Shown here in pieces: positions 1 to 24,292 of a stretch of 57,415 bases of DNA. Every line of letters starts with the position of its first letter. Position 1 is the first letter of the stretch. Source of the stretch: Candidatus Poseidonia sp. (GTDB taxonomy: Archaea; Thermoplasmatota; Poseidoniia; Poseidoniales; Poseidoniaceae); NCBI GenBank assembly GCA_030828165.1, contig JAURDA010000007.1, positions 1-57,415 on the forward strand, in the 5' to 3' direction. The translations under genes were made by a program, and so were the position numbers. The notes beneath the pieces were generated by a model, which ran no database searches, was not told the DNA's origin, and saw nothing but the letters and a program-made list of their open reading frames with translations.

Positions 1-287
1 CGGCTGCCGGCGTCCAAGTTCATGGAGGCGACGTCGGCGGCGCTGACCAACTGGTCGTTCACAAACACCCAGGTGCCTGCGGAGCGGTTGGCGGTTTCTG
101 CAATCTCAGCTTGGGTCATCACGGCGGCGCTGTGACCGGTGCTGTCGGCGATTTCAACTTCGAAGGTGGGCGCATCGGCGCCACCAACGAGGCCGGGCAT
201 CAAGCGAATGCGGCTGCCGGCGTCCAAGTTCATGGAGGCGACGTCGGCGGCGCTGACCAACTGGTCGTTCACAAACACCCAGGTGCC
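1..287 (-). repeat. 210-bp in-frame direct repeat inside the beta-grasp gene
   Basis: Bases 1-77 are identical to bases 211-287, a spacing of 210 bases or exactly 70 codons. The identity probably continues left of the window. Upstream parts of the unit differ (for example residues GHSVVQMSQ versus GHSAAVMTQ), so identity is confined to the half encoding the beta-hairpin and tail. Perfect identity at synonymous positions suggests recent duplication or gene conversion. Confidence 0.9.
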
Positions 288-392
288 CTGGGATTGGGTG
301 GCCTTCTCGGCGATTTCGTTCTGTGACATCTGCACAACGGAGTGCCCAGATGCGTCTGCTATTTCTACGTCAAACACGGTCTTTTCTTTCAT
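1..392 (-). CDS. Tandem beta-grasp (ThiS/ubiquitin-like) repeat protein, 3' end cut by window edge
   Basis: Reading down from ATG at 392 there are 130 open codons to the window edge, so the C-terminus is missing. After five residues the protein consists of 70-residue repeats; one complete and most of a second are visible. Each runs F-[DE]-VEIAD..GHS, a short helix-like stretch, then GTWVFVNDQLV, and the first closes with DAGSRIRLMPGLVGG. The last 34 residues of the unit align without gaps to the C-terminal half of bacterial ThiS (from memory), sharing VN-x-Q-hydrophobic-V, D-x-G-x-x-hydrophobic, and the terminal Gly-Gly. The same stretch also resembles ubiquitin. A short Ala-Asp-Ala-Pro-Thr linker follows the Gly-Gly. 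Function is unknown; possibilities are a processed protein modifier or sulfur carrier, or a purely structural beta-grasp array. The fold assignment is inference by eye. Confidence 0.75.
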   Translation of the reverse strand, partial: MKEKTVFDVEIADASGHSVVQMSQNEIAEKATQSQGTWVFVNDQLVSAADVASMNLDAGSRIRLMPGLVGGADAPTFEVEIADSTGHSAAVMTQAEIAETANRSAGTWVFVNDQLVSAADVASMNLDAGS

Positions 393-542: not shown

Positions 543-1928
543 TCAAATCTTGAGGTTGGCTTGGCGGGCAAGCAGGTGAATGTGCATGCTGTGTTCCAAC
601 ATTGCAGCGTTTGCCCATGCCTGGTCAAAATCCGCTCCCACAGCGTATGCGCCGTTGCCGCGGACCACAACGCATCGCATGCCGCCTTGCTGAAGTGCTT
701 CAGCCACTTGACGAAGGAATTCTTCGGGATGGTCAGGGTCGGGGTCGACGATGATGATCTTCCCAATGTGTTGTTTTCCTACGGCGTCCAACGGCGTCAA
801 GAGGACCAAGTCCTGCTCGCAACTGGCGGCTGTTGTGTGCGGGCCATGCATATGGATCACGGCCGCAGGACCTCCGGTAACCACGGAAACCGAAGCCAAC
901 ACGACCTCCATGACGTGCCAGTCCCCGGGTGCTCCACGGGGCGACATGCTCCCCAGAGGAGCAGCGCACAAACTGCGCTCGTTCATTCGGGGCAAGGTCA
1001 CCATGTTGCGACTTGAGATCATGAGGTTGGGCTGCTCAGGGTGAATCATGGCCACCGAACCCATGGTCGCCCGTACGAGGTGCTCCCTGTCCAACTGCCT
1101 CCCGATGCGGACGAAATCCGAAACCACATGCGAGGGAATCACGATGTTCTCATCGACGTGCGGGGGCATCGCCGGCTCTTCCAATTGCTCGATGACCTCG
1201 GTCGCTCCCGCCATCGACTGGCGAAGACGAGCGTTTTCCATGTGAAGGCGTTCGAGTTCCGCCTCTTTTTCGGCGAGAACATCGGTGGTGGGCGAATCGG
1301 CGACGGGTTGAGTTGATTCACTCTCGGCAGGAACGGGTTCGGCCGTTTCCGTGACCGGCGGTTCCGATGGAGGTTCAGGAACGGGTTCCGGTGCAGGTTC
1401 TGCCGCTGGTTCTGCCGCTGGTTCTTCGGAAGGGGTTTCAACGGATTCGGGTTCAGAAGGTGAGGCAAGGGCTGCGGGTCCTTCGACGGGCGATGTCGCT
1501 TCGGATTCCTGCAAGTCGGGTTCGCTCGGTGTCTCGGAGGGTGGACCAGAAGGCGGTCCACCGGGAGGGCCCGAGGGGGGTCCGCTTGGAGGACCTGACG
1601 GTGGTCCCGACGGCGGCCCACTTGGAGGCCCCGAGGGTGGGCCACTTGGAGGACCTGAAGGAGGGCCGGAGGGGGGCCCCGAGGGTGGGCCTGTGGGCGG
1701 AGAAACGGGTGTTTCGGTTGTTTCCTCGCTCGAGGTCAAGGTCGCTTCGTTGGCCTCATCCTCGGTCATGTTTTCTTCCGTTTGTGCCTCCGCGACCTGG
1801 GATTCAAGGGCCTCGATGTCGCCAAAAGCACCGCCCAGCATGCTCTCAAGTTGGGAACTCTCTTCTTCTTCTCGGGCTTTTTCAGCAGAAGTTTTCGGTT
1901 TGACCACGGTAGCACCCAATTCACCCAC
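543..1928 (-). CDS. Class II aldolase/adducin-fold protein with N-terminal Ser-Gly-Pro-Pro array
   Basis: The 461-residue frame has an acidic N-terminus, a Ser-Gly-Pro-Pro array at residues 77-130, a Pro/Glu-rich spacer to about 215, a short predicted coiled coil (218-250), and a class II aldolase/adducin-like domain from about 263 to the end. That domain shows the family's His-x-His zinc pair (AVIHMHGPH, His359 and His361). In the usual third-ligand motif (asparagine-histidine-glycine in the family) the histidine is replaced by Asn425 (VVRGNGAYAVG), and the catalytic Glu region reads GDW. Aldolase activity is therefore doubtful, and an adducin-like binding role is possible. The frame opens with GTG at 1928, but the nearest TATA box (1938-1945) would start transcription inside it, so TTG at 1919 or GTG at 1907 may be the real start. 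Confidence 0.8.
   Translation of the reverse strand: MGELGATVVKPKTSAEKAREEEESSQLESMLGGAFGDIEALESQVAEAQTEENMTEDEANEATLTSSEETTETPVSPPTGPPSGPPSGPPSGPPSGPPSGPPSGPPSGPPSGPPSGPPSGPPGGPPSGPPSETPSEPDLQESEATSPVEGPAALASPSEPESVETPSEEPAAEPAAEPAPEPVPEPPSEPPVTETAEPVPAESESTQPVADSPTTDVLAEKEAELERLHMENARLRQSMAGATEVIEQLEEPAMPPHVDENIVIPSHVVSDFVRIGRQLDREHLVRATMGSVAMIHPEQPNLMISSRNMVTLPRMNERSLCAAPLGSMSPRGAPGDWHVMEVVLASVSVVTGGPAAVIHMHGPHTTAASCEQDLVLLTPLDAVGKQHIGKIIIVDPDPDHPEEFLRQVAEALQQGGMRCVVVRGNGAYAVGADFDQAWANAAMLEHSMHIHLLARQANLKI
1539..1700 (-). repeat. 12-bp-period repeat encoding a Ser-Gly-Pro-Pro array
   Basis: About thirteen tandem four-residue units (Ser/Thr-Gly-Pro-Pro, once Gly-Gly-Pro-Pro) occupy residues 77-130 of the aldolase-fold protein. 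Codons vary between units, so the repeat is kept at protein level rather than being a fresh slippage product. It probably forms an extended, flexible or polyproline-like linker. Confidence 0.9.
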
Positions 1929-2907: not shown

Positions 2908-5900
2908 TCACTCGTCTTCTTCTCGTCCGCTTTGGGCGAAGGCCACAGCGAGACCGATCATGGCAACCAGAGCGAACGGCGACATGAAGGGCAGGAGGCC
3001 AGCGTCTTCAGCGATGTCTTCGGCGGAGGGGGTTCCTTCGCCGTCCTCGCCGTTGTCGTCGGTTGAATCGGTGATATCCAACGTGGAGGTGTCAACGCCG
3101 GCTTCTTCGAGGGCTTCAGCAAGCGAGTCAAGATCGTGGTTTTCAACATCAACGATGTCCTCAAGAGTGTCGATGTCGGCCATAGCGGTCTGGGCTTCTT
3201 GGGCGGAAACACCGGTGATGTAGTTGATGCTGGCGAAGACCATGGGGAGGTCGGTGCTGTAGCCGGTCGTTTCGGGACCTGCGAGCACGTACCCGTTGTC
3301 GTCCTCGTCCCAAGCGTAAACGCCCACGCCAACGATGGTGGCGTGTTCGGTGCTCCAGAGCGGAGCCCACATGCCGTCAACGTAGGGGAATTCGGGGGTC
3401 TCTTGGTTTTCGGCCACTTCGGTGAAGGTCTGTTCCAGGTTCTCGCCAAAGGCCGTCAGCACCTCTTCAAGGCCGGAGTCGGCAAAGGCTTCGGCAATGG
3501 CCATCAAGCGGTCGCTTGGCTCGGGTTCTTCGGTGACATCGCCGCATGTGAATTGCTCATCAAAGGGTGTCGTCTCACCGTCGACAAACAATTCAGCAAC
3601 AAGGCAATATTCGCCGGTTGAGGAAACGTCGTACGTTTCCACGAGGTCGGCTGCTGAAGAGCCGCCGTATGGGACCGACCATGAATTCAAAGCGGATTCG
3701 GATTCGTCAAAGAGCGTCACCACAAGGGTTACGTCGTTGTATTGTCCGTTCCAATCAGACGACTCAACCCACAAGTCAAGCTCGTACCCGTTGCTCTCAA
3801 CGTCAACATAATCGATGGAAGGGCCGTTCCAGCCCGACTCACAGTAGGCGTCTGTTTCGAGGAGGAAGTTCCCCAATGAATCGTAAAGTTCGGCGCCGAT
3901 GCACTGCTCGAAGTCGCCGTAGCCTCCGGAGGTTGACACGGGCGTGTCGGTCGTGATGTACATGCTGTCACCGGGCGAGAAGTAAACGTCACAGGCGGAA
4001 TAATCGGAACACACCAAGAGTTCGTTCGCATTCATGATCATGTTGCCTTCGCCGTCATCCATCCAAATGTCCAACATCATGTAGAAAGCGCTGCCCTCGT
4101 CTGCACCGTCGCTGCAGTCGTCCATGCCGTCGTTCACGGCCTCGAACGAAATCGTGGCGTCGTCAGCGTCGCAGTAGAAATCGGTGGGGTTGGTGGCGTC
4201 GTACTCGTCCGAACCGTCTGCGCAATCGGCCTCACCGTCGTTGACCCACTGGAAGGGCACTGAGGTGCTCCAGTCGCTGCAGTAAAACCAGTCATCGGCC
4301 ACCTCGTTGCTCGCAACTTCATCGGAGCCGTCGGTACAGTCTTCCCATCCATCGTTGACCGACGAGAAAGGAATCTCTGAACCGTCATCGCAGGTGTAGA
4401 CGGTATACTCTTCGTACTGCGATTCGTCCGATCCGTCGTCGCAGTCTGCGAAGCCATCGTTCACCCAAGAGAGAATGAACGTATCCGAACCGTCTGCACA
4501 GGTGAACATCGAGGTTTCTTCCCCAGTGGTCTCGTCGTACTGGGATTCATCCGAGCCGTCTGAGCAGTCTTCTTCGCCGTCGTTGACCCACGAGAGGTAG
4601 ATGGTACTCGAATTATCAGCGCACTCCATCATCGTGGTTTCTTCACCGTAAACGGCTACGTCGGATTCGTCGTCGCAGTCAGGGTAGTCGTCGTTCACGT
4701 AGGACCAAGGAACGAGTTCTCCGTCATCGCAAACAAACCAAACCTCTTCATCCTCGTCCATGCCAAGTGCGCTTGGTTCAACGGAGCCCCAGAAGGCGTA
4801 GACAGGGTTTCCTTGATCGTCAGAGGCGTCGGACGATTGCAAGTAGAAATCCATCTCGTCCGAGCCGTCTGCACAGTCTTCCCATCCATCGTTGACCGAC
4901 CAGATGTTGATGACTTCGCCGTTGTCGCAGGTCCACTCGTATTCGCTGTTGTCATACTCGTGGTCATCGCCTTCGGCAGAACCGAACCACTCCTCGAGCA
5001 AGTCTCCGACGGATTCGTCAAGTTGCGCTTCAACGTCTTCAGCGACGGCTTCCCCGAAGGCGCTGCTGGAATAAGCGAGCACGTTTCCGAGCAGGCTGAA
5101 CATCACGGGGTTTCCGGGTGGGCAGGAGTCGCAGCCTTGTGCGGCCACCGGAGTGCCGTCACCGAGGTCAACTTCGAGGGCTTCCTCCATCATCGAGAAC
5201 ACAACCCATCCCATCTCTGCATCTTCTTCGTAGTCGCCGGAGTTTTGGAACGCATCCGATATGGTGAGGTCAAACTGACCAGCATCGAAACCAAAGTCTT
5301 CGGTTGGAAGGCCGGTAAGATAGACTTCATAGTCGGCCGAACCGGTGTACGAGCCGTCAACGAGACCGCAGTCGTCGTAGACATAAGTCTCGCCCCAATC
5401 TTCTTCGTAGACGCCGATATCCATCTCGTCCTCAACACAGTCCCAGGAGGTGTAGTCGTTTTCGGCCGCTTCGATGTAGATGGGGCTGGCGGATCCGAGG
5501 CGCCAAACGGCGTCTGAAGAGATGGAATACTCGAAGTTGATTCCCGTGTCAAAGTCAACGGTCATCTCCTCGCCACCGCCTTCAAGGGCGATGTCAACGC
5601 CGAGGTTCATGTCGTTGCCCACCGTCATGTCAACGCCGATGTCGGCACCGACCAGTTCGTAAGCATCGTTGAGGTACTCGGTGTAGAGGATGTCAACCGT
5701 AAGCACGTTTTCGGCTTCAGCGATCACGTCAATGTCAAAGGAAGTCGGGTCGCCGCCGAAAGAGGCGCCTTCTGACCAATCGGTAAGCAGCACAAAGTTG
5801 GAGAGAATGCCGTGACGCAAGGTCACGTCGCTGGTTCGGCTCCAGACTTCAAGGTCGTCGCCGTCCAAGTTCTGAATGGTTTGAGGGGTGATGTCCTCGG

Positions 5901-6183
5901 TCTGATGAACGTACACGTTGGTGGCGCCCGTGGTCAACTGGCCCAAGTCAAGGTTGAACCCGGCGTCCGTAGCGTCGTCCATGATTTCGGTGAAGAGGGC
6001 TTGAATGTCCAAGCCGCTCACGTTTTGCAAGTCGGAGTCAAGACTGGTCCAGTCGTATTCTACGCCGTAGTAGTATTCTGAAGCTTGTTCGGGTTGGGCT
6101 TGAACCGTTGCAAGCGGAGAAAGCGCCGTCAACAACAAAAGGGTCACAAGCAGGCCAGATGGGGTACGCCGAGGGGTGTTCAT
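2908..6183 (-). CDS. Large acidic surface protein with LDL-receptor-A-like repeats
   Basis: A 1091-residue secreted protein that starts with a signal peptide (MNTPRRTPSG, a run of Leu/Thr, then TVQAQ) and ends with a single membrane helix and charged tail (about 1062-1091), so most of it should face outward. Residues about 415-697 hold seven cysteine-pair repeats of the form C-x-DG-x8-VNDG-x2-DC-x-DGSDE, which match the calcium-binding half of LDL-receptor class A modules. The rest is Asp/Glu-rich. The frame is open upstream to 6318, but ATG 6183 lies 27 bases from a TATA box and is directly followed by the signal peptide, and the longer form would overlap guaAa. It probably acts in adhesion or calcium-dependent surface assembly; this is inference. 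Confidence 0.85.
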   Translation of the reverse strand: MNTPRRTPSGLLVTLLLLTALSPLATVQAQPEQASEYYYGVEYDWTSLDSDLQNVSGLDIQALFTEIMDDATDAGFNLDLGQLTTGATNVYVHQTEDITPQTIQNLDGDDLEVWSRTSDVTLRHGILSNFVLLTDWSEGASFGGDPTSFDIDVIAEAENVLTVDILYTEYLNDAYELVGADIGVDMTVGNDMNLGVDIALEGGGEEMTVDFDTGINFEYSISSDAVWRLGSASPIYIEAAENDYTSWDCVEDEMDIGVYEEDWGETYVYDDCGLVDGSYTGSADYEVYLTGLPTEDFGFDAGQFDLTISDAFQNSGDYEEDAEMGWVVFSMMEEALEVDLGDGTPVAAQGCDSCPPGNPVMFSLLGNVLAYSSSAFGEAVAEDVEAQLDESVGDLLEEWFGSAEGDDHEYDNSEYEWTCDNGEVINIWSVNDGWEDCADGSDEMDFYLQSSDASDDQGNPVYAFWGSVEPSALGMDEDEEVWFVCDDGELVPWSYVNDDYPDCDDESDVAVYGEETTMMECADNSSTIYLSWVNDGEEDCSDGSDESQYDETTGEETSMFTCADGSDTFILSWVNDGFADCDDGSDESQYEEYTVYTCDDGSEIPFSSVNDGWEDCTDGSDEVASNEVADDWFYCSDWSTSVPFQWVNDGEADCADGSDEYDATNPTDFYCDADDATISFEAVNDGMDDCSDGADEGSAFYMMLDIWMDDGEGNMIMNANELLVCSDYSACDVYFSPGDSMYITTDTPVSTSGGYGDFEQCIGAELYDSLGNFLLETDAYCESGWNGPSIDYVDVESNGYELDLWVESSDWNGQYNDVTLVVTLFDESESALNSWSVPYGGSSAADLVETYDVSSTGEYCLVAELFVDGETTPFDEQFTCGDVTEEPEPSDRLMAIAEAFADSGLEEVLTAFGENLEQTFTEVAENQETPEFPYVDGMWAPLWSTEHATIVGVGVYAWDEDDNGYVLAGPETTGYSTDLPMVFASINYITGVSAQEAQTAMADIDTLEDIVDVENHDLDSLAEALEEAGVDTSTLDITDSTDDNGEDGEGTPSAEDIAEDAGLLPFMSPFALVAMIGLAVAFAQSGREEDE
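4096..4940 (-). repeat. Seven LDL-receptor-A-like repeats (protein level)
   Basis: Seven copies of a 35 to 65-residue module lie in the surface protein. Each has one Cys near the start, an invariant VND-G/D, and a DC-x-D-G/E-S/A-D ending. Canonical LDL-A modules carry six cysteines, while these carry two, so only the acidic calcium cage and one possible disulfide are retained. Copy 2 is the most divergent (VNDDYPDCDDESD). Confidence 0.8.
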
Positions 6184-6206
6184 CGGTTTGGCGTTCGTTT
6201 GACTCC

Positions 6207-6214
6207 ATTTTAAG
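6207..6214 (-). promoter_or_regulatory. TATA box for the surface protein gene
   Basis: The minus strand reads CTTAAAAT, centred about 27 bases upstream of ATG 6183. This predicts a nearly leaderless transcript and supports the chosen start. Confidence 0.55.
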
Positions 6215-6259
6215 TGTATTCCAGCCAACTTAGGAGCGTTTTCTCCGGCGTCCGCCGTA

Positions 6260-6850
6260 TCAGCCGTCTCGTCGCCGACGGCACACTTCAACGAAATTTT
6301 CGAACATTTCCTTGCCAAATTCAGAATCGTTAACTTCCGGGTGAAACTGCAGACCGAAGCGGGTTCCTTCTTCGTTTTCCATGCCTTGAACGGCGCACGA
6401 AGGGCTGCTGGCTGTCACAAAAAACCCATCGGGAACGGCGTGCACTTCATCGTTGTGCGATTCCCAGACCGTTTGGACGGGGCTGGTCCCGGAAAAAATC
6501 GTTCCCCCGCCGTTCACCAGTTCAATCTCCATGGCACCGAATTCTGGCTCAGGGGACTCTCGTGCGTCGCCGCCGTAATGCCGGGCCATGAACTGATGTC
6601 CTGCGCATATGCCGAGAATCGGGATGTCCAACACCAAAAAAGCGGCACAGTTGCCCAATTCACCGCTCAAGCCCACCCGTGCTGCGCCTCCGGAAAGAAT
6701 CAATCCGTCGAGCTCCCGGAGGTCGTCAACCGGTGTTGTGTTGTCGATGATTTGCGTGTCCACCTTCAAGTAGCGTAGCATCCGCCACTCCCTGTGGGTC
6801 CACTGGCCACCGTTGTCAACCACATCAATGACCAGGGGTTTGTCCGTCAT
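6260..6850 (-). CDS. guaAa: GMP synthase, glutamine amidotransferase subunit
   Basis: A 196-residue class I glutamine amidotransferase that releases ammonia from glutamine for XMP amination in the two-subunit archaeal GMP synthetase. The nucleophile elbow is ILGICAGHQ with Cys82, and the catalytic His170 and Glu172 are in LQFHPEV. The N-terminus (VIDVVDNGGQWTHR) matches the subunit family. The synthetase partner is not in this window. The frame runs open to 7114, but that extension has no domain character and overlaps the divergent M24 peptidase gene, so ATG 6850 is preferred. The 78-base gap to the M24 start at 6929 must hold both promoters. Confidence 0.92.
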   Translation of the reverse strand: MTDKPLVIDVVDNGGQWTHREWRMLRYLKVDTQIIDNTTPVDDLRELDGLILSGGAARVGLSGELGNCAAFLVLDIPILGICAGHQFMARHYGGDARESPEPEFGAMEIELVNGGGTIFSGTSPVQTVWESHNDEVHAVPDGFFVTASSPSCAVQGMENEEGTRFGLQFHPEVNDSEFGKEMFENFVEVCRRRRDG

Positions 6851-9267: not shown

Positions 9268-10158
9268 ATGGCGGCGCAGAAGGGAACCAGAAACGTACTC
9301 CCGTCCACCGGGTTGGTGCTCATCGGCATCGGCATGGGAACGGTTGAAGGGTTGACCTTGGAGGCCATCAACGCCGCAAAGGCCGCCGGCCACCGATGGT
9401 ACGAAGCCTACACGGCGCTTTGGCCCGAGGCTTCGTTGGCGGTGTTGGAAGAAACCGTTGGGCCGGTCGAGCGGGTCATGCGCCCCGACATTGAGGCCCC
9501 GGAGCGTTTGTTTTCATTGGCGTCCACCTCGCTGGTTGCACTTCTCGTGGTGGGCGACCCGCTACAGGCGACCACCCACGTCGACCTCCAACTGCGAGCG
9601 ATCGAACACGGTATACCGTGCGCCGTCGTCCACGGCATTTCCATCACCAACCTCGTGACCGGGGCCGTGGGCTTGTCAAATTACAGGTTCGGACGCCAAA
9701 CCACCTTGACCTACCCTTACGGCGATTGGGTAGCCACATCCCCGCTCGAAGTGCTGGCGAGCAACAAGGAACAGAACCTGCACACCTTGGCTTTGCTCGA
9801 TCTTGACCCAACCGGTCAAGGAACCGGCGAACAGCGCCCGATGTGCCCCGCTGATGCGGTGAACTCGCTGAGAATGATGTGGCAGAAACTTGCCGAAGAG
9901 GACGAAGGCCCGCATGCTGACGTAAACGGCCTTGAGGCGTTTCGTCGTTTCGCCTTCACGCGCTACCTCGACCAAACGTTCGAGGACATTTCCGTCGTTC
10001 TTTGTTCGGATATGGGTACGCCTGAGCAGCAAATCGTCACGACGACCCTTGGCCAGCTCAGCGACGAGCCGGGTGGCCGCCTCAACTGTCTTGTCTTTCC
10101 AGCCAACGCGAGTGAGGTTGAAGAGAAGGCTTTGACTCGTTGGGTCCGAGGTGAGTAA
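9268..10158 (+). CDS. dph5: Diphthine synthase
   Basis: A 296-residue SAM-dependent methyltransferase of the diphthamide pathway, which modifies a histidine of elongation factor 2. Family signatures are LVLIGIGMGTVEGLTLEAI at the N-terminus, the HRWYEAYTALWPE segment, LLVVGDPLQATTHVDL, and the VVHGISITNLVTGAVGLSNYRFG region. The start was chosen at ATG 9268 for the well-placed GGAGGT; an in-frame ATG at 9229 would add 13 residues. The next gene begins at the base after the stop codon, so the two are translationally coupled. Confidence 0.92.
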   Translation: MAAQKGTRNVLPSTGLVLIGIGMGTVEGLTLEAINAAKAAGHRWYEAYTALWPEASLAVLEETVGPVERVMRPDIEAPERLFSLASTSLVALLVVGDPLQATTHVDLQLRAIEHGIPCAVVHGISITNLVTGAVGLSNYRFGRQTTLTYPYGDWVATSPLEVLASNKEQNLHTLALLDLDPTGQGTGEQRPMCPADAVNSLRMMWQKLAEEDEGPHADVNGLEAFRRFAFTRYLDQTFEDISVVLCSDMGTPEQQIVTTTLGQLSDEPGGRLNCLVFPANASEVEEKALTRWVRGE

Positions 10159-12273
10159 GTGTTCGGCCTATCTGACGAGATTGTTCTGCTCTTGTCCTTT
10201 GTGCTGTTCATGTGTTTCTTCGCTGGTGTGGGCCTTGCCTCCATGCGGGTGAAACAGGACACAACGGACGATTACTTGGTCGCTGGCCGCGGGATGCACC
10301 CTGCGCTCGCTGCCCTCAGCGCCGTGAGCACCTGGAATTCCGGCTACATGTTCATCGGTTTCATCGGTTTCATCTTCGTTCAGGGCTATTCCGGCATTTG
10401 GATTGGCCTTGTCTCCACCATCGGCCAAGCCGTTGCTTGGATTTGGTTGTACAAGTTCATTCAGAAAGAAGGCAACGAACGTGGCGTCCGTTCCCTTTCC
10501 TCCCTCGTCTCACGGACCACGGGTGCTCCTGAAGCAAAGTTAGCAGCAATCCTCTCCGTCGTCTTCCTGGCCATCTACGCAGCGGCCCAGCTCGTCGCTG
10601 GCGGCGTTGCGCTCCGAGCCATGTTGGGCTGGTCCGAAGTCATTGGCATCCTCATCGGCTTTGTCTTGGTCGTGGCGTATTGCTATGCAGGCGGCATTCG
10701 TGCCTCCATTTGGACCGATGCGGCTCAGTCTTGCGTGATGATCGTGGGGTCCACCATTCTCTGTTACGTCGCCGTCTCGGAAGCAGGCGGGTTTTCGGGT
10801 CTTCACCGGACCTTGGAAAGCGTTGACCCCGGCATGGTGAACCTGTTTCCTGCCGACCTCACCTTCGGCGTGACCTTGTGGATCGGCGCCTTCTTCCTCG
10901 GTGGACTTGGCGTAGCGGGTCAACCTCAGGTGGTTTCCCGAGTGATGACCCTCAAGGACGACAAAGACCGCAAGCAAGCCGCCATCTGGTTCTTCGTCTG
11001 GCAGACCCCGTTCATCGCGCTCATGTTCATCATCGGGTTGGCCTGCAGGGCCATCTTCCTCGATTTGGACGCCTCCGACGCACAAGACGGGCTTCCGTTG
11101 CTCGCCATGGAAGTGCTCAATCCCTTCCTTGCTGGCGTGATTCTGGCTTCGATTTTTGCGGCGACCATGTCCACGGCCGACAGTCAGGTCTTGGCGTGCA
11201 CGGCTGCCATTACCGATGACGTCAAGCCCGAATGGAGTCAAGAGCACAAAACCACCAAGCGCGTAACCATGGTCGTCGCCGTTTTCGTGACGTTGATCGC
11301 CTTGGGCGGTCAGCAATTCCCCGGGTTTGGCGACTCCGTGTTCGCCTTGGTCGTCTTGGCCGTGTACGGATTGGGCGGCATCTTCGTCCCCCTCTTGTTG
11401 ATTCGAATGATGGGTTACGAACCCGATACCGAACACACGATTTGGATGATGGTGGCCGCTCTCAGCGCCGTGATCGTCTGGAGCGCAAGCGGATACGGCG
11501 AGGACATCTTCCCGTCCATTCCCGCCATGAGTTCAGCCTTCGCCACGCACTTCATTCTCTGTTGGAAGCGAGATGCGTCCAACCCGAACCCGTTGGGCCG
11601 ATACAGTCTGCCCACGCAACAAACGGCAACGGTTGCGGCAATAGCCATTCTCGTTCTCTTTGGAGCCTTGGAAGGCACTTACCAAGCCGTGGCCCCCGAG
11701 GGCAACGGCGGCTCGTCGGGCAACGACCCCTACCAACTCACCTACACCGTGAGCGAATGGACCGAAAGTCAGTCCTTGACCCTCAGCGACGGCGAAACGC
11801 AAACCTTCGAAGTCTCGATCGACGAGAGCATGACGGCGGTGCTGATCGCTGAACTGACCATCACCTACACCGATACTGGAGAAACCGGGACCCAAGCGTG
11901 TGACGAGGTCATCACCAGCCCGGATTACAGCGGCCTCGCCGGTCCGTTTTCGGAGAGCGACGACGCCGACCGCAGCACGACGGCCTGCGACACCACGACC
12001 GGCGTGGGAAGCATTCGGCCCAACGCCGACCTGAACCAATACGCGGCGGAAGGCGCGGGCGATTACGCCCTGAACGGGACCGAGTCGGACTTGCTCGGCG
12101 TGCTTGAGATGCTGGGTACCTCTCCCGAGATGGTCGGCACCCTCACGATGGACGTCACCGTCGAGGTGAACAACGGATTCCCCCCCATCCCCGGTGATGA
12201 CGGCGAAACCGTGACCGTGACGCTGACGATGCTGGTGTTCCAACCCAGCGGCATGACGCCCCTCACAGCGTGA
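10159..12273 (+). CDS. Sodium:solute symporter (SSF family) with an extra C-terminal domain
   Basis: A 704-residue protein. Residues 1 to about 510 form about 13 membrane segments of the sodium:solute symporter family; the N-terminus (DDYLVAGRGMHPALAALSAVSTWNSG) carries the family substrate and sodium-site region. The last helix is followed by about 190 polar residues (515-704) rich in Thr/Asp with a few cysteines and a beta-strand-like pattern, unusual for this family and probably exposed at one face of the membrane. The GTG start follows the dph5 stop immediately and has a purine-rich site before it. Substrate unknown; amino acids or organic acids are likely. The end overlaps the convergent metallo-beta-lactamase gene by 11 bases. 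Confidence 0.88.
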   Translation: MFGLSDEIVLLLSFVLFMCFFAGVGLASMRVKQDTTDDYLVAGRGMHPALAALSAVSTWNSGYMFIGFIGFIFVQGYSGIWIGLVSTIGQAVAWIWLYKFIQKEGNERGVRSLSSLVSRTTGAPEAKLAAILSVVFLAIYAAAQLVAGGVALRAMLGWSEVIGILIGFVLVVAYCYAGGIRASIWTDAAQSCVMIVGSTILCYVAVSEAGGFSGLHRTLESVDPGMVNLFPADLTFGVTLWIGAFFLGGLGVAGQPQVVSRVMTLKDDKDRKQAAIWFFVWQTPFIALMFIIGLACRAIFLDLDASDAQDGLPLLAMEVLNPFLAGVILASIFAATMSTADSQVLACTAAITDDVKPEWSQEHKTTKRVTMVVAVFVTLIALGGQQFPGFGDSVFALVVLAVYGLGGIFVPLLLIRMMGYEPDTEHTIWMMVAALSAVIVWSASGYGEDIFPSIPAMSSAFATHFILCWKRDASNPNPLGRYSLPTQQTATVAAIAILVLFGALEGTYQAVAPEGNGGSSGNDPYQLTYTVSEWTESQSLTLSDGETQTFEVSIDESMTAVLIAELTITYTDTGETGTQACDEVITSPDYSGLAGPFSESDDADRSTTACDTTTGVGSIRPNADLNQYAAEGAGDYALNGTESDLLGVLEMLGTSPEMVGTLTMDVTVEVNNGFPPIPGDDGETVTVTLTMLVFQPSGMTPLTA

Positions 12274-21254: not shown

Positions 21255-22265
21255 TCAACAAACCGACTTCGTCGTCTGGATGATGACGGCGCCGATTTTG
21301 TACGGGTCACCGTTTGAGGCCGGGCGGCGGTCTTCGAGACGACCCACCCAACCGTCGGTTGGCACGGAGGCAGGCACGCGAATGGACGCCCCTCGGTCCG
21401 AAACGCCATAAGAAAATTGGTCGATGGACTGGGTTTCGTGCAGCCCGGTCAAGCGCTCCTCGTTGTGAGCGCCGTAAACGGCCATGTGCTTCTCGATGTT
21501 CTTGCCGAAGGCTTCACAGATGCTGTTGAACAGGTCTTCGCCGCCCTTGTCTCGCATGGCACCGTTGGAGAAATTAGCGTGCATACCCGAGCCGTTCCAA
21601 TCGCCCTTGATGGGTTTGGGGTGGTATTCGATGTAGTACCCGTAGCTTTCCGTCAATCGGTCGAGGAGGTAGCGGGCAACCCAGAGTTCGTCGCCGGCTT
21701 GCTTGGCGCCTTTGGCGAAGATTTGGAACTCCCATTGTCCGCAAGCCACTTCTTGGTTGATCCCTTCAAAGTTGAGGCCTGCTTCCAAACACAGGTCTGC
21801 GTGCTCTTCCACAAGGGCGCGCCCGTGCGTGTTTTTGCCGCCAACGGAACAGTAGTACAAGCCTTGAGGGCCAGGGTAACCGCCAACGGGGAACCCAAGC
21901 GGAAGCTGCGTGTCGACGTCCATGATGAAGTACTCCTGCTCGTATCCAAACCAGAAGTCGTTGTCGTCGTCGTCAATGGTTGCTCGGCCGTTGCTGGCAT
22001 GCGGGGTTCCGTCGGGGTTGAGCACTTCGCACATCACGAGGTAACCGTTCACGCGCTGGGGATCGGGGAAGATGTTCACGGGCTTGAGCAGGCAATCGGA
22101 CGCACTGCCGTCGGCTTGGCGGGTGGAAGAGCCGTCAAACATCCAAATTGGGCATTCTTCGAGCGTGCCGCTGAAATCCGAGCGGACCATCGTTTTGCTA
22201 CGCATGTTTTGCGTGGGTTCGTATCCGTCAAGCCAAATGTACTCCAGTTTTGCTTTATCGTCCAT
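21255..22265 (-). CDS. Type II (eukaryotic-type) glutamine synthetase
   Basis: A 336-residue enzyme making glutamine from glutamate, ammonia and ATP. It matches GSII rather than the 440 to 470-residue GSI usual in archaea: LEYIWLDGYEPTQNMRSKT, PIWMFDGSSTRQADG, FGYEQEYFIMD, PQGLYYCSVGG, INQEVACGQWEFQIF and the nucleotide-site GDWNGSGMHANFSN. Ligand residues in these motifs are intact. ATG 22265 was chosen over TTG 22274 because it follows a TATA box by about 32 bases. Confidence 0.93.
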   Translation of the reverse strand: MDDKAKLEYIWLDGYEPTQNMRSKTMVRSDFSGTLEECPIWMFDGSSTRQADGSASDCLLKPVNIFPDPQRVNGYLVMCEVLNPDGTPHASNGRATIDDDDNDFWFGYEQEYFIMDVDTQLPLGFPVGGYPGPQGLYYCSVGGKNTHGRALVEEHADLCLEAGLNFEGINQEVACGQWEFQIFAKGAKQAGDELWVARYLLDRLTESYGYYIEYHPKPIKGDWNGSGMHANFSNGAMRDKGGEDLFNSICEAFGKNIEKHMAVYGAHNEERLTGLHETQSIDQFSYGVSDRGASIRVPASVPTDGWVGRLEDRRPASNGDPYKIGAVIIQTTKSVC

Positions 22266-22292
22266 GGGTATCAAATGCGGCGTTTGCGAGAC

Positions 22293-22302: not shown

Positions 22303-22498
22303 CCATACGCTCAATTTAATGGTCAAATTACTCATCAAATGCTCAGCATTACGCTTTCCATCTGATATTTTGGTGAAATTTTGCTTTCGTTCTTTCGCCT
22401 CCGTTTTGCATTTGCGCGGTCATCTCTGCGGTTTTGTTGCATTTGAGCAAGCCAAAGAATTGGCCCCTCGTCGAGAAAAACATCGTCGCCGAACACCG

Positions 22499-24292
22499 TC
22501 AAGCGTTGTTGGCGGCGTCTTCGCCTTGGGGCGTGATGAGGACGTTCGCATCGTCGCGAACGATGGTTGGTATGGAGAGCGTTCCCGAGTTCACCGTAAT
22601 GGGGCACGCGTTGCTGCAAGCGGGTGGAAGGTAGTCCTCGCCGCTTTGCGTCAGCACAATTTCAAGAGCATGTCCTGCTGGAAGGATCACGTCCATTCCC
22701 TGAAACTCCATGAGCATCGTTACCGAGGAAAACGGCACCACCGTCTGGGCATTGTATCCCCCAGCGTGATACCGCACGTCCATCGTTGCGTGGCCGAAAC
22801 GCAAACCGGTTTCAGCGTCACGGAGTTCAGCGAAAATTTGTCCGCCGTCAAAGGACGGAGTGACCTCGAGATGCAGTGTGGGCAAGCCGCTGATGTGAGT
22901 GTCTCGGTCCATGGAAAAGGCTTCGCACGTCACGAGAACCGAAGACGAAGCCCCCACCGAACCCTGCGCATCGCAGCTTGGTGTTTCCCACATCGCATCC
23001 AACGGAGGCCACGTTTCTTCGATTCGCCATTGGCCGTCGTTGCGCTGGATTTGAGCGTGAAGTGATGGACGCTCGCCGATGCCTTTGAGATAGTACTCCA
23101 TCCATTCGAACAGGTCTTGGCCCCAATCCCAACGCGTCATGTTGTGGATGGCTTCTCCACCGTACCCGCTGGGTTGGTTGTTGTGTTTGGCCCACTGGTC
23201 CGGATAGTTGTGTTCCCACTGGCCCAACATGCCGGCGACCTCGTAGCCTTCGTCGATGTAGGTCTGGTACCATTGCGTACCGGGGGGCCCGCCGAAGACT
23301 TGGTGGGGGTCAACGTTCCAATCTTGCATGCCCTGGACCCAATAGATGCTCCCTTTGTACGTCCCGAGGGCTTTGTCAATGTGGCTTCGCTCATCGTAAT
23401 AATTGTCCATGTACGGGTCAAGTTCGCCCAGGCCGTACCGCGTCGGCCCCGCCAAAAATCCCTCGAGCACGTCACCGCACAAGTTGTCGAGATCGTCGCT
23501 GTCGTAGTCGAGAATGGAGCCGCCGTAATTGGAATGCATGACTTGACTGCGAGCTTCTGCGCTCCCGTTCTTGTAGAGCAACGGGCCCAAAGCCGTGGTC
23601 CCGGAAATGGGAACGATGGTCTTCAGGTATTCGCTTCCTTGGGCGGCGGCTTCCCAAGCCGTGGCGCCTTCGTAGGACTTTCCGTAAATCGCCACGTTGC
23701 CGTTGCTCCAATTTTGTTGACCCAACCATTCAACGGCGGCATGGATGCCTTGGCCCTCTCCGTCGCCGCGGTAATCGAAGCAGCCGGTGCTCTCCTCGGT
23801 GGCGAAGACGGCGACCTGTGCAAGTGCATAGCCGTGGGGGATGAAATTGTCGTAAATGAACTCGCCCCGGCCTGCCCCAACCACGTTGGTGGGCGTTGAC
23901 TGGCTCCCGGGCGACCCGTAGTCAAAATAGGGACTCACGACCGCAATGACGGGGACTTTCTCTCCGGTTTCGGTGTTCGATGGAAGCCAATAGGACAGAT
24001 GGACTTCAGCGGTGTTGGGTCCGCCTTCCCACGTGCCGGTTGTGTCGACTTCAATGGTGGCTTCCTGGACGGGAAGGGGTTGGTGCGGGCCTTGTTTGAG
24101 CACCATGGCGTAGGTGCCCGTCCAGTTCCAGTCAAGCGTGTGGCGGTCCCAAATCGAAGGGTACATCCCCTCCTCAGCCGTTTCAACGCCCAAGTCTCCC
24201 TCTCCAAAGCAACCCGAAAGCGGCATCAGCAGCAACAGCACGGTGAAACCGATGGCCTGTCGCATGGTGAAGGCACGCCGGGGGTCTGTCAT
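22499..24292 (-). CDS. S15/CocE-type peptidase lipoprotein
   Basis: A 597-residue secreted hydrolase of the X-Pro dipeptidyl-peptidase/CocE family. The signal peptide ends in the lipobox LMPLSGC (Cys28), so it is probably lipid-anchored outside the cell. The catalytic triad is visible: Ser206 (YGKSYEG), Asp324 (GMQDWNVDP) and His361 (QWEHNYP). The C-terminal third is the beta-rich X-Pro domain. The frame is open far upstream but has no protein character there; the start at ATG 24292 puts the signal peptide at the N-terminus (ATG 24265 is also possible). Confidence 0.88.
   Translation of the reverse strand: MTDPRRAFTMRQAIGFTVLLLLMPLSGCFGEGDLGVETAEEGMYPSIWDRHTLDWNWTGTYAMVLKQGPHQPLPVQEATIEVDTTGTWEGGPNTAEVHLSYWLPSNTETGEKVPVIAVVSPYFDYGSPGSQSTPTNVVGAGRGEFIYDNFIPHGYALAQVAVFATEESTGCFDYRGDGEGQGIHAAVEWLGQQNWSNGNVAIYGKSYEGATAWEAAAQGSEYLKTIVPISGTTALGPLLYKNGSAEARSQVMHSNYGGSILDYDSDDLDNLCGDVLEGFLAGPTRYGLGELDPYMDNYYDERSHIDKALGTYKGSIYWVQGMQDWNVDPHQVFGGPPGTQWYQTYIDEGYEVAGMLGQWEHNYPDQWAKHNNQPSGYGGEAIHNMTRWDWGQDLFEWMEYYLKGIGERPSLHAQIQRNDGQWRIEETWPPLDAMWETPSCDAQGSVGASSSVLVTCEAFSMDRDTHISGLPTLHLEVTPSFDGGQIFAELRDAETGLRFGHATMDVRYHAGGYNAQTVVPFSSVTMLMEFQGMDVILPAGHALEIVLTQSGEDYLPPACSNACPITVNSGTLSIPTIVRDDANVLITPQGEDAANNA

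Follow-up and report, generated by a model that had tools for sequence, protein, structure and literature searches.

A candidate polyubiquitin-type modifier precursor in Poseidoniales archaea and its associated E1, E2-like and JAMM genes

The gene at the left end of the window (the whole 57,415-nt stretch of Candidatus Poseidonia sp. DNA analysed here) probably specifies a modifier protein in the form of a polyubiquitin-type precursor, which would be served by a dedicated pathway of E1, E2-like and JAMM proteins. Computational support covers the tandem units ending in Gly-Gly (GG), their fold class, the E1 family, an intact JAMM motif, an invariant Cys in the E2-like proteins and co-inheritance of the components; we infer cleavage, activation and transfer of the modifier, its targets and its physiological role. 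A precursor of this type had been proposed in an earlier reading of the DNA alone (the sequence-only reading), and the idea is supported by the tandem GG units, the beta-grasp model of the unit and the E1 and JAMM genes; of the two findings that would have spoken against it, a fold other than beta-grasp and a GG not kept among units and homologues, neither was made. Polyubiquitin-style precursors are a eukaryotic gene organisation, paralleled in bacteria by the polyUbl operons (PMC1779556). An archaeal counterpart, fixed and accompanied by E1, E2-like and JAMM proteins, would represent independent ubiquitin-like tagging in widespread ocean plankton, would bear on how, and how often, complete ubiquitin cascades arose, and would supply a short gene list for in vitro tests. 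The broader proposition, that Poseidoniales have a chromosomally fixed polyubiquitin-type tagging system (polyprotein modifier, E1, new E2 family and JAMM protease) standing apart from SAMP/Urm1 and bacterial defence systems, with modifier genes that evolve in concert, seems to us evenly balanced between true and false.

Results

The window gene and its surroundings

As the gene lies on the minus strand, what had been described as the first gene of the stretch is really the last gene of that strand on the contig. The relevant features are:

3..392, minus strand: first 130 residues of the poly-Ubl gene, with its ATG at 392 and open at the contig end
180..392, minus strand: unit 1, complete (residues 1-71), predicted beta-grasp, ending LMPGLVGG (DAGSRIRLMPGLVGG)
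180..185, minus strand: Gly-Gly of unit 1 (residues 70-71), candidate site of JAMM cleavage and of E1 activation
165..179, minus strand: inter-unit linker Ala-Asp-Ala-Pro-Thr (ADAPT), from the translation
3..164, minus strand: unit 2, 54 residues before the contig ends, from the translation and a profile match
213..287, minus strand: 75-nt stretch of unit 1 that recurs without change at 3-77 in unit 2 (nucleotide comparison)
3..77, minus strand: second copy of this 75-nt stretch, in unit 2 (nucleotide comparison)
546..1928, minus strand: upstream gene on the same strand with a C-terminal Aldolase_II domain (Pfam, 2.2e-14)

The tandem units of about 70 residues, their GG tail and the ADAPT linker, all noted in the sequence-only reading, were confirmed by translation and by the homologues, and a 33-row unit profile matches unit 1 at 180-374 (E 5.5e-31). 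In a 98% identical relative (L051, from genome G018) the whole gene consists of two units, a tail of Ile-Thr-Ala (ITA) and a stop, the C-terminus of its second unit reading LMPGLVGG-ITA-stop; this second unit contains no lysine, so chain building through it would be limited.

The assembly comprises 1.79 Mb in 116 contigs with the poly-Ubl gene on contig 95, and searching the genome with the window protein gave no second copy (best other match E 0.6). The tandem repeat might be a chimera created at a contig end, as the window stops inside the repeat and the contigs of G007, G015, G016 and G026 likewise stop at or near the gene. Contig ends at this gene in several assemblies are, however, as expected of a near-identical tandem repeat, and complete genes of two to four units sit well inside long contigs (for example 133 kb into the 246 kb of G027:C3), with a complete gene also in the single-contig genome G039, which refutes an assembly artefact and reduces its probability practically to nil.

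The Aldolase_II gene (cluster c4) adjoins the Ubl gene in 17 of the 19 own-genus loci fetched and is given no predicted role in the tagging system; its protein has a low-complexity GPPSGPPS stretch in the N-terminal part. Further along the window are a tRNA-Asp (GTC) at 1974-2048 and a large gene at 2908-6318 with repeated Cys-rich DGSDE motifs, LDL-receptor class A-like by eye.

Fold and sequence affinities of the unit

The AlphaFold2 model of unit 1 (33 rows; pLDDT 86.8, pTM 0.73) runs strand, strand, helix, strand, strand, short helix, strand, so that the fold predicted is the beta-grasp supposed in the sequence-only reading. With this model Foldseek ranked the Chp1-Tas3 complex first, followed by MoaD (probability 0.99), SUMO and other ubiquitin-like domains, with ThiS at ranks 12 and 13 and, at rank 22, what we take to be a Urm1-like protein; no match had E <= 0.001. 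At the sequence level 37 of 38 PDB matches of the unit profile were ubiquitin, aligned without gaps over residues 40-76 with GG on the terminal Gly75-Gly76, and the resemblance to the ubiquitin tail that had been pointed out earlier is thus in register. It should be noted that the profile scores weakly against single ubiquitin (E 0.17 at best) and that the E of about 1e-15 against polyubiquitin chains is not counted as significance because it sums nine domains of about 5 bits. The likeness to ThiS was also found again: at E <= 0.01 ThiS is the one NCBIfam model that the window protein matches, though with 16.4 bits against a cut-off of 37.45; the four-unit protein L043 reaches 30.1 bits with ThiS (TIGR01683), also below the cut-off.

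Against Pfam the window protein gave sub-threshold noise only. The Multi_ubiq model (PF14452, cut-off 24.5 bits) matched none of 33 single units at E <= 1 and scored at best 12 bits in the own genome, at an unrelated place; judged by this sequence model the unit is not a member of Multi_ubiq. The phage tail TAPI model Lambda_tail_I is just passed by L043 (24.0 bits, cut-off 23.8), by summing over units of which no single stretch passes, but it had no match in the window protein or the 33 single units at E <= 1 and there is no phage context here.

Homologues, unit number and tails

The window protein was matched in 57 of 97 genomes (its own included, E <= 0.1), and the 33-row unit profile in 37 of a phylum-level set of 292 genomes, all 37 in Poseidoniales (E <= 0.001; the share of negatives outside this order is unlisted), from which we conclude that the gene is not a product of chance. 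The JAB profile matched 39 of the 292 genomes, again all within Poseidoniales. This order name for the homologues is based on the names of 24 named-assembly loci, 15 of which are Poseidonia, Poseidoniaceae or Poseidoniales and 8 Euryarchaeota archaeon or euryarchaeote, with one probable chance match; L204 (Victivallis, 42% over 38 residues), the only genome_contigs match outside the group, was taken as chance.

In Poseidoniales (Marine Group II archaea) the number of tandem units per homologue ranges from one to four. The GG, on whose conservation the sequence-only reading depended, ends 74 of 78 unique units (counting those without X) and the other four end in AG. By eye, linkers are of 3-5 residues in stand-alone homologues and of about 9 in L049 and L050. 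For the tails, units less than 8 residues from a stop were counted, with identical repeats and X-containing units dropped, giving 34 distinct last units (L064 falls outside these because 14 residues follow its GG). By script, 32 of them have 1-6 residues beyond the GG; one of the remaining two, L146, has His-Gln after its AG (by eye), so only L068:301-507 ends at the GG itself. Cys is the final residue in 13 of the 34. The unit alignment (A4) holds 33 of 80 unique units. In L047 a second gene (10154-10801) follows the three-unit poly-Ubl gene; in its product a single Ubl-like unit is continued by a long C-terminal extension.

If the tandem Ubl domains made up an uncleaved structural or scaffold protein, the variation of the internal linkers would be natural enough, and the oligomeric bacterial Ubls reportedly described in a 2025 paper offer a parallel. 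We regard this as very unlikely, since the GG is kept at internal and last units alike, family f2 includes single-unit homologues that carry a tail, and a JAMM protease is co-inherited.

Homogenisation between units

The C-terminal halves of the two window units are identical over the 75 nt available and the N-terminal halves match at 50 of 87 nt. L035, L036, L042 and L044 show no difference in 108 nt between C-terminal halves, with N-terminal halves at 58-70/87; others, such as L040 (78-95/108) and L043 (77-91/108), are intermediate in the C-terminal half, and L045, L047, L048 and L065 (51-63/108) show no homogenisation. Polyubiquitin genes evolve in concert, and we read the nucleotide pattern as gene conversion that would be confined to the GG-bearing half of the units.

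The E1, JAB and E2-like proteins

The own-genome E1 matches Pfam ThiF at 3.2e-17 (62.9 bits, cut-off 28.1), and the E1 profile matches UBA1, MccB, MoeB, ThiF, Uba4 and Cap2 in the PDB. Proteins with E below 1e-50 were counted as E1s; most genomes also give weaker matches, of about 1e-10, to other ThiF-family frames some 400 aa long, which were left uncounted. GxGGIG and a Cys in the context [SG]C[QVI], which presumably corresponds to the catalytic Cys of MoeB/Uba4-type E1s, are each present in 30 of 31 E1s, the exceptions being the two pieces of the N-interrupted gene L055. E1s usually carry NLxRQ; the form N[LI]x[HF]Q found in 29 of the 31 was counted against the favoured pathway. CxxC is absent from 30 of the 31. 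The closest NCBIfam model is PRTRC_ThiF (55 bits, cut-off 144.75), and the model of the SAMP-activating UbaA (NF047750) gives 30.2 bits, below its cut-off of 450.

All 26 JAB proteins have the HxHP...SxxD motif, with a spacing of 6 in 20 and of 5 in 6. The own-genome JAB matches no Pfam family at 0.1, and Prok-JAB (PF14464) matches four of seven others below its cut-off, with a best E of 0.0018 (one of them scored 13.4 bits against 25). In the PDB, AMSH-type proteases were matched over the motif (E 0.02-0.15), ranking below two designed (Pizza) proteins.

The E2-like proteins were picked up by gene neighbourhood and not by similarity to E2s. As their alignment (A5, 20 of 24 listed segments) had been selected with a pattern that required the Cys, invariance of this residue was rechecked free of the pattern on all 36 matches, and the Cys is present in 36/36 rows, which represent 34 distinct proteins because L069 and L172 denote a single locus. 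A CxxC..CxxC segment opens the larger members of the family. The AlphaFold2 model (pLDDT 84.7, pTM 0.78) has a helix, five strands, Cys82 and further helices, the Cys lying at what may be the catalytic position as judged from secondary structure alone. Foldseek returned E2 or E2-like titles for 19 of the best 20 matches (UBE2D3, UBE2G1, Ubc13, Rad6 and others; frataxin at rank 6), with low scores throughout (E >= 0.095, TM about 0.2-0.4). Among PDB sequence matches of the domain there was no E2, and the proteins scanned match no E2 model in Pfam; the family is recognised by no Pfam model in these proteins. By these numbers the case is weak, and we call the domain E2-like, as its predicted structure suggests, claiming no membership of the E2 (UBC) family.

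These properties also bear on a quite improbable alternative, that the units are ThiS/MoaD-like sulfur carriers, matured by the JAB protein and charged by the E1 with a thiocarboxylate for cofactor, tRNA or natural product synthesis, with no conjugation. The closest curated model is ThiS (below its cut-off), MoaD and ThiS are among the top folds, and operons combining JAB, E1 and ThiS-like genes in siderophore and sulfur pathways are tabulated in the accessible text of PMC1779556. Such a scheme has, however, no clear place for linked E2-like proteins whose Cys is invariant, no sulfur genes were seen by eye among the printed neighbours, and the lack of CxxC in nearly all E1s also argues against it.

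Gene linkage

Of the genes that the sequence-only reading suggested looking for beyond the edge of the contig, E1-like and JAMM genes both exist in the genome, E1 (22365-22979) adjoining JAB (21835-22287), but they lie on another contig (G000:C23) and not past the edge; two E2-like genes are on C73 and C40. In the own-genus loci fetched the Ubl gene is not beside E1, JAB or E2-like genes; an RFC-like gene follows it in 19/19, and cluster d2 is found beside E1-JAB in 6/6. Partner genes are linked to the units in other genera: four genomes (L049, L050, L055 and L056) encode two Ubl units and an E1/ThiF-like domain as a fusion, Ubl, E1, JAB and E2-like genes occur together in L060, L063 and L064, and L068 has Ubl, E2-like and E1 genes before its contig ends. 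E1-JAB fusions with the JAB domain C-terminal are found in L058, L069 and L145. Four f2 loci (L057, L059, L061 and L067) have a single-unit gene amid unrelated genes with E1 and JAB elsewhere or, in G092, with no E1 found.

Several further observations concern these loci. Beside JAB, 10 of 20 E1/JAB loci have a gene for a small protein of about 80-100 residues (cluster d7), a possible fifth component of the system; the one member scanned (L136:6463-6696) has no Pfam match above cut-off. In the L060 operon TFIIB and AAA ATPase genes (5501-6517 and 4073-5473) are flanked by E2-like paralogues, an arrangement suggestive of a module equipped with a transcription factor of its own, and genes of the same clusters in L068 are likely counterparts. 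At L143:11792-12922 a gene whose product matches the TFIIB zinc ribbon below threshold (22.1 bits, cut-off 29) stands directly before a single-unit Ubl gene, and L063:8759-9841 has a Ubl unit and an E2-like domain in one frame, the latter after the GG. The second E2-like gene of the own genome (L164, G000:C40:10000-26000) is about 10 kb from a separate 402-aa ThiF-family frame, with comparable spacing in relatives including G024, G029, G015, G011, G017, G032 and G039.

Co-inheritance of the components

Partner profiles were built from Ubl-holding operons and then run genome-wide, presence lists were compiled by hand, and machinery was scored as present where at least two of E1, JAB and E2-like were found. 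Weak Ubl matches in G056, G060, G067 and G076 were left out of the counts, and G072 and G094 were counted as Ubl-positive on the strength of about 2e-18 in a subsequent profile scan. All four components are present in 49 of the 97 genomes, none in 38 and some in 10. Ubl and machinery agree in 92/97 genomes (66/67 without the own genus). As Fisher p-values ignore kinship we relied on within-genus shuffles, in which agreement averaged 81.5 and reached 92 in 1 of 20,000. The five disagreeing genomes (machinery without Ubl in G001, G010, G019 and G055; Ubl with E2-like only in G018) are drafts of 73-93% estimated completeness, and missing components may reflect assembly loss because the poly-Ubl repeat breaks contigs.

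A role in antiviral defence of the Bil/CBASS/Bub kind, with the modifier put on viral or effector proteins, has to be weighed here since presence varies within genera g5, g13, g15 and g16, Ubl and machinery varying jointly; in addition the E1 matches PADLOC E1-E2 models (and BilD weakly) and the f2 operon L060 has its TFIIB and AAA ATPase. We consider it unlikely. Only the three E1-bearing proteins of 10 scanned have a PADLOC match, the Ubl, JAB and E2-like proteins among them matching no model at 0.01, and searches of plasmid and viral contigs with one protein, the window protein, gave no matches. In the own genus the system looks like housekeeping because Ubl and machinery are present in 26 of 30 genomes and neighbours (the RFC-like gene and d2) are shared across loci.

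Discussion

For the polyubiquitin-type precursor that we favour, the predicted order of events is as follows. The dedicated JAMM/JAB protease would cut behind every Gly-Gly, so that linker and tail are lost and monomers released; the dedicated ThiF-type E1, encoded beside the protease, would adenylate the Gly-Gly; the modifier would then be handed to the Cys of the E2-like protein and from there to targets; and the JAMM protease could also strip it off again.

Eukaryotic polyubiquitin genes have head-to-tail GG units, a short C-terminal tail and within-gene homogenisation. The present genes share these features and the register with ubiquitin 40-76, but they have linkers, only the C-terminal half is homogenised, and no single-domain match is significant. 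Archaeal SAMP/Urm1 systems have single beta-grasp units with GG and a ThiF-family E1 of the UbaA type; the genes described here have in common with them a beta-grasp GG modifier and a ThiF-family E1, and the SAMP1 model matches L043 below cut-off, but the units are in tandem and the E1 is not UbaA-type by model. As the own genome has its separate 402-aa ThiF-family frame (at G000:C40), the poly-Ubl system looks like an additional one. PRTRC and Bil/CBASS systems resemble it in the E1, which is nearest to the PRTRC_ThiF (NCBIfam) and E1-E2 (PADLOC) models, and differ in that PRTRC_ThiF is far below its cut-off and none of the remaining components scanned is matched by a PADLOC model.

Of known kinds, the bacterial polyUbl operon (Iyer et al. 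2006, type 6e; PMC1779556) comes nearest; it has 1-3 tandem Ub-like domains of 70-75 residues, an E1-like protein with a JAB domain and an E2-fold partner. Tandem Ub-like domains of about 70 residues, an E1-like protein, a JAB and an E2-fold partner are common to both. In contrast to type 6e the host is archaeal, the units belong to a different sequence family to which the Multi_ubiq model is blind, and there are up to four of them; most loci seen have JAB and E1 as adjacent but separate genes, and in the fusions the JAB domain is C-terminal where it is N-terminal in 6e; the Ubl gene is unlinked from JAB-E1 in the own genus; and the E2-like Cys is kept, whereas the E2/RWD-like partner of 6e/Multi_ubiq lacks it. 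A Zn-finger partner (C-x3-C-x35-38-H-x2-C) is a feature of 6e/Multi_ubiq.

The closest tested archaeal precedent that we have seen, going by the accessible text of the two papers concerned, is Caldiarchaeum, whose ubiquitin precursor has residues after the GG and is cut exactly there by the JAMM enzyme Rpn11 (PMC6043591), in a system with E1, E2 and RING E3 (PMC5654768). Residues beyond the GG and a JAMM enzyme are found here as well, cleavage being predicted in our case, but the precursor described in that text has one unit where ours has tandem units. Among the matches listed, titles and abstract starts on Poseidoniales/Marine Group II or on archaeal tandem ubiquitin do not describe the present system, most subscription papers being outside the scope of that search; one Marine Group II genome is reported to carry a UCH gene and RING genes (PMC4327156).
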